Assembly (NCBI RefSeq): GCF_000317515.1
Contig: NC_019738.1
Location: forward strand, 223,501 to 287,500
Reading direction: 5' to 3'
DNA length: 64,000 bases
Source of the DNA: Allocoleopsis franciscana PCC 7113
GTDB taxonomy: Bacteria; Cyanobacteriota; Cyanobacteriia; Cyanobacteriales; Coleofasciculaceae
Shown here: one piece after another, positions 9,294-12,055 of the stretch
How positions within the stretch are numbered: the stretch's first letter is position 1
How the letters are laid out: the number at the start of each line of letters is the position of its first letter
Notes under the pieces: model-generated
What the model was told of the DNA's origin: nothing
What the model saw: only the letters and a program-made list of their open reading frames with translations
The model's database searches: none
Program-made: the position numbers and the translations under genes

Positions 9294-9525
9294 AGGGAAC
9301 TTAGGGTTTGTCCATAATTAATTCCGCCCTTTTCAGTCGGGCACAGCATTATCAATATTGTGCTTCACCCTAAATGTTATTGTTGCCATACCTTGGTAGT
9401 AGAGCCTAGCAATCCGCCAAAACCAATCGATGGGATCGCCAGACTTATCATAGGGAATTGCGCCTAAATCACTGAGTCTTTTTTTTGATAACGCTTCCAT
9501 CATCACTCAAGAGGCGCTGCTTCGA

Positions 9526-9555
9526 TTGACAATAATATGCTAGTTCTAGCATATT
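9526..9555 (+). promoter_or_regulatory. Promoter with palindromic operator of the HigBA-type operon
   Basis: A consensus -35 box TTGACA (9526-9531) is followed by a perfect inverted repeat AATATGCTAG-TT-CTAGCATATT (9534-9555). The repeat covers the spacer and the likely -10 (CATATT, about 18 bp downstream of the -35). It lies 7 bp before the toxin start codon. Autoregulatory palindromes of this kind are usual for toxin-antitoxin operons and would bind the HTH antitoxin, possibly with the toxin. Confidence 0.7.
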
Positions 9556-9561
9556 TAAGGG

Positions 9562-9960
9562 ATGAGTTCATTGTTGAAACCAGTTGAATGGGTTGGAAGC
9601 TCCCTTGAGGATTTGAAAGATTTTCCAGAGGAGGTTCAGCAAGTCGTTGGCTATGCCTTGTACTTGGCTCAATGCGGTGAGAAGCATCCTTCAGCTAAAC
9701 CACTCAAGGGATTTAAGGGTGCTAGGGTGCTTGAAGTTGTGGAAGACTTCGATGGAGATACTTACCGAACTGTTTACACGGTGAAACTTGCTGGCGTAAT
9801 TTATGTGTTGCACGCCTTCCAAAAGAAATCAAAGCAAGGAATCGCTACGCCAAAGCAGGATATTGATTTGATTGAAACAAGACTTAAACGAGCACAAGAG
9901 CATTACGCAGAAAACTATCACAAGCAGCAAAAGGGAGAGGAAAATGACTCAGGAAATTAG
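9562..9960 (+). CDS. higB: RelE/ParE-superfamily toxin, HigB/Gp49-like
   Basis: This 132-residue protein matches the phage Gp49/HigB-like toxin family: KDFPEEVQQVVGYALYLAQ, then PLKGF, VLEVVEDFDGDTYRTVYTVK and YVLHAFQKKSK (about residues 82-92), the basic FxKKS stretch typical of the family. HigB-like toxins are ribosome-dependent mRNA endonucleases. The toxin gene comes first and overlaps the antitoxin start by 17 bp, the HigBA order. The start codon has little spacing from AAGG, so initiation may be weak. Family is well supported; catalytic activity is inference. Confidence 0.85.
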   Translation: MSSLLKPVEWVGSSLEDLKDFPEEVQQVVGYALYLAQCGEKHPSAKPLKGFKGARVLEVVEDFDGDTYRTVYTVKLAGVIYVLHAFQKKSKQGIATPKQDIDLIETRLKRAQEHYAENYHKQQKGEENDSGN

Positions 9961-10273
9961 AGTGCAAGCAAGTAGCGGTAATGTGTTTGCCGATTTGGGT
10001 TTAGAAAATTCGGATGAATTGCTTGTGAAAGCTGAACTCGCACGTAAGATCAGCAGCATTATTACTAAGCAAGGCATGACGCAGGCTGAAGCCGCAGAGC
10101 TTTTAGGGATTGACCAGCCAAAAGTATCTGCTCTAATCAACGGCAAGTTATCAGGCTTTTCAACTGTACGGTTGTTTCGTTTCTTGAATGCTTTGGGTCG
10201 AGATGTGGAAATTGTAGTGAAAACCAAACCTAAATCTCGCTCACAAGCTCGAACACGGGTTGTTGCTACGTGA
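9944..10273 (+). CDS. higA: XRE-family antitoxin, HigA-like
   Basis: An HTH_XRE domain (about residues 31-85: KQGMTQAEAAELLGIDQPKV followed by SALINGKLSGFS) makes this the DNA-binding antitoxin and autorepressor of the pair. The chosen ATG has the ribosome site AGGGAGAGG seven bases upstream and lies inside the toxin's last codons, so the two are translationally coupled. Length is 109 residues. The C-terminal basic tail (KTKPKSRSQARTR) is unusual in composition but short. It probably binds the perfect palindrome at 9534-9555. Confidence 0.87.
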   Translation: MTQEIRVQASSGNVFADLGLENSDELLVKAELARKISSIITKQGMTQAEAAELLGIDQPKVSALINGKLSGFSTVRLFRFLNALGRDVEIVVKTKPKSRSQARTRVVAT

Positions 10274-10427
10274 TCTTGGATGCTGACAGCTTACCTTTGT
10301 ATCTGTTGCACATCATTGGTGTGTTGCTGGCGCTGTGCAACCTCGATGAGCATTCTCAACGCCTCATTCACGGCTATCTCATTGGAAAAAGCTTAGGCAA
10401 CATGAAGATTAGCTTCTAAGATGATAT

Positions 10428-10985
10428 TTAAGGATAGGAATACGCATATGTGCTAATTTCATTGAAGATGTCATCGAGTGGTTTGATGGAATCAACCTCC
10501 ATTGCCATCTGACCAGCAGGGTTGTAAGCATTTTTGAACGCCCACATTTCAACCATCCAATGCCGTCGATGAGCAACACTTACTAACGGGATGAAGTCCC
10601 TATCTCCAGATAGAATAGCTAAGTCCATCACCTCTGTTGTAGTACAAATAATTTCAGTTGTCTGAGCAACAAGTTCTGTGTCAACGGCTTTCTCCTCATT
10701 CATTGAGTTGCGGTCATGCACTGTTACTGAAAAGCCATGGTTCTGTGCAGCTTGCCAGACAGTATCGTTTTGTGGAGGTCTTGAGCCTACAAGAATAGCC
10801 CGTTCAACGGTTCTGCCATTTGAAACTGCTAGCAATAACTTTCCAAAATCGATTCGCCAGGAAGGATCTTGTGGGTCTCTATCATTAGGGTTTTGCTTGA
10901 CTATATCCTTCATCTTGGCACTGAATTTCTGTCCCTCAATAAAGACGTTTGAATTATCTACGACAACGACAACTTTGCTAGCCAT
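10428..10985 (-). CDS. NYN-domain (PIN-like) protein
   Basis: 185 residues. The protein opens with the NYN first strand VVVVVDNSNVFIEG, where the Asp is a metal ligand, and has the late motif LSGDRDFIPLV with two more acidic ligands (about residues 130-140). NYN domains are PIN-like RNases or LabA/DUF88-type proteins. The ATG used here has GAGG six bases upstream; an upstream ATG 30 codons earlier would give a tail unlike the family. It lies just downstream of the attC site on the same strand, next to abiV and higBA. Substrate is unknown. Confidence 0.8.
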   Translation of the reverse strand: MASKVVVVVDNSNVFIEGQKFSAKMKDIVKQNPNDRDPQDPSWRIDFGKLLLAVSNGRTVERAILVGSRPPQNDTVWQAAQNHGFSVTVHDRNSMNEEKAVDTELVAQTTEIICTTTEVMDLAILSGDRDFIPLVSVAHRRHWMVEMWAFKNAYNPAGQMAMEVDSIKPLDDIFNEISTYAYSYP

Positions 10986-11020
10986 ACCTAACCTCGAACA
11001 CCATACAGTGTAAAGTAAAC

Positions 11021-11037
11021 AGTCTAGCTTAGACTGC
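11021..11037. promoter_or_regulatory. Perfect inverted repeat upstream of the NYN gene
   Basis: CAGTCTA-GCT-TAGACTG, with 7-bp arms and a 3-bp centre, lies 35 bp before the NYN start codon on its promoter side. The size and position suit a dimeric repressor operator. No regulator can be named. Confidence 0.4.
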
Positions 11038-11123
11038 TCTAATCTGAAGACCATCTCAATCACAACTACCTTCAATTCCTCGCAGACAACCTTGAGGCAG
11101 TGTCAACACCAAGATATAAAGCA

Positions 11124-11211
11124 GCCCAACGTTCCTGGTCAGCGGCTGCCGATAACCGTTAAATCCCACACAAGCGGCTTGGGTCAGTCCACTGCACCAG
11201 CGTTGTTATGC
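11124..11211 (-). other. attC-type integron recombination site
   Basis: Read on the minus strand, the site starts with R'' GCATAAC (11205-11211) and ends with R' GTTGGGC (11124-11130), which fits the consensus GTTRRRY. Inside, the L'' segment CTGGTGCAGTGG pairs with L' CCGCTGACCAG, leaving one extrahelical G and one G-T wobble, with the unpaired spacers AACG and GAAC between the R and L boxes. These are the structural marks of a folded bottom-strand attC. About 45 nt form the variable terminal part. It begins 10 bp after the abiV stop. Confidence 0.8.
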
Positions 11212-11819
11212 CGCTCTCTGCTCACATCATGTATTGTGAATTACTTTCTCTAAAGGTATCAATCTCGTCTATAAGTCGGTTCCATGCACTAGCTCCCGTT
11301 CCTGTATATATTCCCTGAATTTCGGCTAATATCTCGCCACCAATACATATGAGAAGAAAAGAATCTTTAGAATCAATCATTTGCTCAGGTACTAAGACTC
11401 CTTCTGGGCTTATTTCTGCATACAAGGCTTTATTTCGCAATTTAAATAACTCTTCTTCTCGAAACCAATTTGCAAAACGATTCTCATTTTCTCCGTAAAT
11501 TCGAGTGACACGCGAATTGATTAATAATGTTGTATAAACTGCATAAATGTACTTATTTTGATGCTTATAAAAAGCTTGTTTGTCCAATTTTCCTGAAACT
11601 TGTTTATTACCTAAAATAATAACTTTCCCTACTTCTTCAATTAACGAAGTAGCGAAAAAAGTGGAAAGGGCATAATCGCCTTCTTGGAAAAAACGCTGAC
11701 TAAGCCTCCAGTATTTTTCAAGATGCTCTCGATGTTGTTCGCTAATCATACTGTAAAAAACTTTGTATCAAGTACTTAACTTTTACTCAAGTAACAGCAT
11801 TTCAAAAACCTGTGCATAA
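11130..11819 (-). mobile_element. Solitary integron gene cassette carrying abiV
   Basis: The predicted crossover points are G^TT in the attC R' box (11130/11129) and G^TT at 11820/11819. There the minus strand reads GTTATGC, the exact reverse complement of the attC R'' box GCATAAC. In the circular form these two would rebuild a perfectly symmetrical attC, as expected for a true cassette boundary. The 690-bp cassette holds a 70-bp leader, abiV and the attC. No second attC or integrase is visible on either side, so it is probably a stray cassette inserted at a secondary site. Confidence 0.7.
11222..11749 (-). CDS. abiV: AbiV-family abortive infection protein
   Basis: 175 residues with an all-helical pattern of the AbiV family: EYWRLSQ-like first helix, GDYALSTFFATSLIEEVGKV (about residues 24-43) with the conserved EE-GK, then KHQNKYI and a later basic FKLRNKALY helix. 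AbiV of lactococcal phage defence blocks late phage translation by binding a phage protein. Whether this homologue acts the same way is inference. It is the only gene of the predicted integron cassette (11130-11819). A weak ribosome site precedes the ATG. AT content is higher than in neighbouring housekeeping genes, in keeping with transfer. Confidence 0.78.
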   Translation of the reverse strand: MISEQHREHLEKYWRLSQRFFQEGDYALSTFFATSLIEEVGKVIILGNKQVSGKLDKQAFYKHQNKYIYAVYTTLLINSRVTRIYGENENRFANWFREEELFKLRNKALYAEISPEGVLVPEQMIDSKDSFLLICIGGEILAEIQGIYTGTGASAWNRLIDEIDTFRESNSQYMM

Positions 11820-12055
11820 CTATTAATTATGCCACAGTTACGATTAACATTCCTTAATGTATCAACTAGCACTAAAGATCTTTGTGTATCCATCACCATT
11901 CAGCATCAAAGTCTCCCTTAATTTAATGAATGAAGCGATCGCTCCCTCTTACCCACTCCCCAAGAGCGATCACTCATCTAATTTACGAACAGTTTTGCAC
12001 AACGTTTCTGTACAGATTCAGTCAAAATGTTCGGTGTGGAAAACGTCTTGCTTCG
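11750..12055. other. abiV upstream region
   Basis: Holds the cassette 5' boundary (GTTATGC on the minus strand, 11814-11820), which sits within a small hairpin GCATAA-CTATTAA-TTATGC (11814-11832), and HIP1-like octamers near 11935. The sequence beyond 11832 shows no second attC. Reading frames here are short and look non-coding. Confidence 0.5.

Follow-up and report, generated by a model that had tools for sequence, protein, structure and literature searches.

A solitary abiV integron cassette with an attI-like 5' junction and no adjoining integrase gene in Allocoleopsis franciscana PCC 7113

Integron research has centred on the cassette arrays of Proteobacteria, and the sedentary chromosomal integrons that hold defence cassettes are large arrays adjoining an integrase gene, intI. 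Phage-defence cassettes in such integrons have been reported (Darracq 2025 and Getz 2025, as cited in PMC12444791). Clusters of attC sites without an integron-integrase, termed CALIN, have also been described (Cury et al. 2016, as cited in PMC8618304), and three origins have been proposed for them, namely off-target insertion, loss of intI and rearrangement (PMC8618304). Neither defence cassettes nor attC clusters devoid of an integrase are new, Delta-attI cassettes have been described in mobile integrons (PMC12901181), and the taxon-specific attC covariance models include Cyanobacteria as a recognised class (Ghaly 2021, PMC8352920). For AbiV itself, the lactococcal protein is a binding partner of phage SaV, and its proposed effect is to block translation in the course of infection (PMC3231927); a survey of HEPN proteins grouped AbiV with those having an alternative histidine (PMC3710099).

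In A. franciscana, an abiV gene was found in a genuine integron gene cassette within the stretch of DNA analysed here (64 kb; hereafter the window; Table 1). The attC of this cassette fits a covariance model (CM) of cyanobacterial sites, and its 5' end TTATGC (11819-11814, minus strand) conforms to TTRRRY and is the exact complement of the R'' box GCATAAC, so that a circular form would close a perfect R''/R' pair. The initial annotation had read GTTATGC upstream of abiV as the reverse complement of R'' and had delimited a 690-bp unit of gene plus attC; both readings held, at 11820-11814 and from 11819 to 11130 (minus strand), respectively. Its naming of the gene agrees with matches to Pfam PF18728 (E 2.8e-14, 54 bits, cut-off 27.1), NCBIfam TIGR04498 (E 6.3e-24, 85 bits, cut-off 27), the PADLOC AbiV model (1.2e-19) and two solved AbiV structures (PDB 9bj5 and 9bj7, E 1e-7). 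The product shares the TIGR04498 and PF18728 family with lactococcal AbiV, a further likeness being that the lactococcal gene is chromosomal and transferable between strains (PMC3231927; PMC3710099), and it probably acts as an abortive-infection protein in phage defence. The lactococcal gene is not known in a cassette, whereas the cyanobacterial gene is in one. As in sedentary chromosomal integrons, a defence gene is carried as a cassette, but here it is a lone cyanobacterial cassette without intI. The unit is a real cassette with cargo of a known kind, in a host context that is partly new.

Table 1. Features of the abiV locus (positions in the window; the slash marks the crossover)
Feature	Position	Strand	Evidence
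attC, 88 nt, cyanobacterial type	11124..11211	-	CM R1 68.3 bits; covariation across 76 sites
Integron gene cassette, 690 nt, TTATGC ... to G of R'	11130..11819	-	R'' complement at 5' end, attC at 3' end
abiV, 175 aa, HEPN-type AbiV family abortive-infection protein	11222..11749	-	PF18728, TIGR04498, PADLOC, PDB
attI-type junction, core GGCATAATTAATAG/TTATGC, no adjoining intI	11814..11835	-	PWM, attI HMM
DNA beyond the attC crossover, beginning with TTGGGCTGCTTT, kept in G001	11008..11129	-	G001 alignment
Strain-variable interval, mscS to alr, holding the cassette	9427..12040		alr-mscS adjacency in five relatives; content differs in G001

Read on the minus strand, the attC (11211 to 11124) is GCATAAC-AACG-CTGGTGCAGTGG ... 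CCGCTGACCAG-GAAC-GTTGGGC, with R'' at 11211-11205 and R' (GTTGGGC) at 11130-11124. The L''/L' stem forms 11 of 11 pairs, one of them G-U, and the single extrahelical G in L'' is kept across the cyanobacterial attC family. The covariance model (R1) was trained on 14 attCs adjoining integrase genes of other cyanobacteria, with the target left out. Training sites came from the DNA beside intI genes of integrase-bearing cyanobacterial genomes (a true integron integrase was present in 22 of 386) and from a Kovacikia plasmid integron; a simple R-box/stem scanner, which also matches non-attC sequences, was used only for harvesting them. The attCs read beside cyanobacterial intI genes were 70 to 89 nt long and resembled that of abiV. 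With 68.3 bits (E 1.9e-15 in the window search, 2.4e-13 across the whole 8-Mb genome), the abiV site was the top match of the entire genome and the sole match in the window. The fit to the cyanobacterial class (PMC8352920) is a fit to this CM, built here from cyanobacterial sites. Among 76 sites of the family, 86.7 % of cells were paired, compared with at most 44 % when slid, and covariation was 0.389 against 0.143 in shuffled data. Folding energy as DNA was not significant (z -0.8 for the recombining strand and -1.3 for the opposite strand), and the status of the site is decided by comparison, through the CM and covariation, rather than by folding energy. The unremarkable folding of the single sequence would suit a chance hairpin or terminator behind abiV with no integron feature, but this is next to impossible in view of the CM match, the strong covariation and the conserved extrahelical G. 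A terminator search gave no match at the attC, and many relatives with genomes of 5 to 10 Mb had no CM match at all at 1e-6. The CM search rules this candidate out, and the attC behind abiV, with the boxes and the L pair with one extrahelical G that had been claimed for it, is genuine. Rfam searches at gathering and permissive thresholds gave no relevant family in the attC/abiV region.

At the 5' junction, where the crossover lies between 11820 (G) and 11819 (T), the sequence resembles the core of an attI site. A recurrent core, ..TATAATAAATAG/TTRRRY, was found beside intI in seven cyanobacteria, often with a palindrome upstream. By a PWM of the core built from 22 other cyanobacterial sites, AATTAATAG/TTATGC ranked first of 127,956 positions in the window, and the 16-nt upstream half alone, without the R box, again ranked first (of 127,968). 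Searched over about 186 kb, an attI HMM from 26 other sites gave the target an E-value of 0.097. Of its four top-scoring matches, one was a training site (3.748 Mb), one was the target, and the remaining two lay on the cassette strand upstream of two further host attCs, at distances of 0.84 and 1.2 kb. The core is found again at 3.748 Mb in the host genome. The pattern AATWAATAGTTRNRY has two occurrences in the genome, each at the 5' end of a solitary cassette, although it was partly modelled on both and the reversed control gave three matches. Among 69 attC regions, 15 besides the target had an attI core where the R'' complement predicts the cassette start. The core derived from intI-adjacent sites was present upstream in 20 of the 69, and in nine of these 20 the R box complements its own attC exactly (shuffled 1.7, maximum 6 in 2000). 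The conserved TATAAT of attI resembles a -10 box; a promoter reading of the junction was rejected, as the promoter scan gave no match at the CATAAT of the target.

The likeness to attI is confined to the core, about 20 nt. The outer part (-32 to -9) had a PWM score of -2.9, indicating no similarity, the outer attI repeats known from other sites were absent, and the target reached only E 9 with an HMM built solely on the seven attIs adjoining intI. With the likeness so confined, the junction may be an attI-like secondary site, in which case an integrase acting from elsewhere, or since lost, would have inserted the cassette at a chance attI-like (attG-like) site where no integron platform ever stood. 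Insertion at attG has been documented experimentally (Loot et al. 2024, as cited in PMC12444791), no remnant of intI lies at the locus, and the flanking genes alr and mscS are adjacent in relatives, all of which would fit. The same core at 3.748 Mb and the solitary cassettes of relatives, often with attI similarity of up to about 208 bp, argue the other way, and this route is quite possible but somewhat short of an even chance.

No intI was detected in the window, and within about 215-220 bp before alr no trace was found at E-values up to 10. In the genome, no protein scored above the cut-off of TIGR02249 and no complete intI was found; a fragment covering only the first 86 positions lies at C1:3596135, 3.36 Mb from the cassette. 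At least nine strong attCs were found over 7 Mb of the host genome. Besides that of abiV there were eight (54 to 64.5 bits), at 0.957, 3.477, 3.484, 3.521, 3.598, 3.604, 3.748 and 6.905 Mb of C1, all at least 0.7 Mb away, and there were weaker ones too. The statement in the initial annotation that no intI or second attC is nearby is accurate for the window but not for the genome, which has at least eight more strong attCs and the intI fragment. Two of its further inferences were not supported: a cassette dispersed without its platform is at odds with a 5' edge that fits an attI core and with the attCs and intI remnant elsewhere in the genome, and its being unusual in a cyanobacterium is at odds with the presence of attCs in 59 of 97 relatives. 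Close to the truncated intI (C1:3.596-3.598 Mb; L090 9135-10791), the opposite strand carries two attCs, and an SMP-30-like gene lies in between; the region represents a decayed integron or a CALIN.

The abiV locus has no intI adjoining its attI-type core, as a complete integron would, and membership of an array was rejected; the window holds a single attC. It resembles a CALIN in being an attC-bearing cassette without nearby intI, and the origins proposed for CALIN fit it. It differs in its attI-type core at the 5' end and in its single attC, where the usual threshold is two or more within a few kb. It is likely that the locus is a single abiV cassette anchored at an attI-type site, which was inserted by an integrase, IntI, and is now immobile for want of one. 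The circular cassette would have entered a double-stranded attI-type site at 11820/11819 by the action of IntI on the folded bottom strand of the attC, the product being attI-type core, abiV and attC in canonical orientation. The cassette would now be stranded because there is no intI at the locus and the sole intI of the genome is a truncated remnant; it would probably still be a substrate for IntI supplied in trans. The unit would belong with the other single cassettes anchored at attI-type sites, and the small attC clusters, that are dispersed through genomes of the order.

Insertion at a secondary site, set out above, is one route within this account, and a second is that the locus is the remnant of a complete one-cassette integron from which intI was deleted. 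In relatives, 8 of 60 solitary attCs have a whole (L189) or fragmented intI immediately upstream, on the opposite strand, and the host itself has an intI fragment elsewhere, both of which are consistent with such a loss. The 215 bp before alr hold no trace of intI, however, and the outer attI repeats are missing, making this second route rather doubtful.

In five relatives (G004, G008, G020, G051 and G044) that have none of the inserted genes, alr lies next to mscS at a distance of 135 to about 400 bp, whereas in the host the two genes are separated by about 2.6 kb containing the cassette together with a NYN gene and a toxin-antitoxin-like pair. This indicates that the cassette locus was gained. 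The empty site predicted for related genomes, AATTAATAG/TTGGGCTGC, was not found, the relatives offering only alr-mscS adjacency without the inserted genes, and by eye no attI core was seen between the adjacent genes. The Gp49-like/HTH_37 toxin-antitoxin-like pair and the NYN-domain gene (9562-10273, plus strand; 10428-10985, minus strand) are missing here in the sister species (G001, the closest relative). Short dispersed repeats, common to several relatives, lie in the alr-cassette spacer (11921-11979) and elsewhere.

In the sister species, the interval is about 4.5 kb long and holds other genes with the same abiV and attC, although the 5' junction of abiV differs from that of the host. A block at 11008-11810 is 96.5 % identical to L071 9848-10649 of G001; one end falls short of the cassette boundary by 9 nt and the other extends about 120 nt beyond the attC crossover, so that the limits of the block differ from those of the cassette. 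Between the two species, dS was 0.089 for abiV compared with 0.50 for alr and 0.46 for mscS, so the acquisition or exchange of abiV probably postdates the divergence of the species. The dN/dS of abiV was 0.19, and the gene looks to be under purifying selection. The low dS and the block limits lying off the cassette limits would also suit a process without IntI, such as homologous or illegitimate recombination between the sister species, with the attC as a passenger. They bear on the later history of the block and not on its origin, as the attC, the R'' complement and the attI core mark the original insertion; this alternative is unlikely. AbiV was found in only 2 of 389 genomes of the order, those of the host and G001, and no AbiV was found in plasmids, phages or viral contigs. 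Its nearest relatives outside the genus, 54-58 % identical, are in FCB, Brocadiia and KSB1 MAGs; these were rejected as cassettes, as no attC was found beside them.

The host carries at least nine attC-bearing units, as singles or small clusters, around its chromosome, a pattern that is common to its order. The attCs of the 59 relatives (E 1e-6 or better) were often on many contigs, and the remaining relatives, several of them 7.5- to 10-Mb genomes from the same family, were attC-free and served as negative controls. Many solitary cassettes in relatives have attI similarity longer than the core, up to about 208 bp. One relative (G421) has six copies of an attI-like element, 90 to 208 bp long and built of tandem palindromic repeats, on six contigs (L234-L239); all copies end at TATAATATATAG/TTA (one varies) and are followed by different DNA, and the full-length intI of this genome is on a separate contig without the element. 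With these dispersed elements and the intI remnants at solitary attCs, integron decay and orphan attI sites are both possible. One tentative extension, itself more doubtful than not, is that cyanobacteria carry scattered orphan attI docking sites, some of them repeats of about 200 bp, and that an integrase, working in trans or no longer present, loaded them with single cassettes; abiV would be one such cassette, and the whole a dispersed integron rather than one array.

In this order of cyanobacteria, over half of the genomes examined have dispersed attCs, mostly integrase-less; a share of these attCs is anchored at attI-type sites, and some carry defence or toxin-antitoxin genes. The dispersed attI-type sites without intI look new: no description of them in cyanobacteria was found in the open papers searched. 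If these sites are real docking points, cassettes could be stored chromosome-wide, which would change the view of how defence genes spread, and searches for integron remnants would change as well, since single attCs are dropped by the usual threshold of two. The cargo beside other solitary attCs (L166-L225) included a TIR protein, OLD/AAA ATPases, an ApeA-type HEPN protein, Schlafen AlbA, PIN, DUF5615 and TumE.
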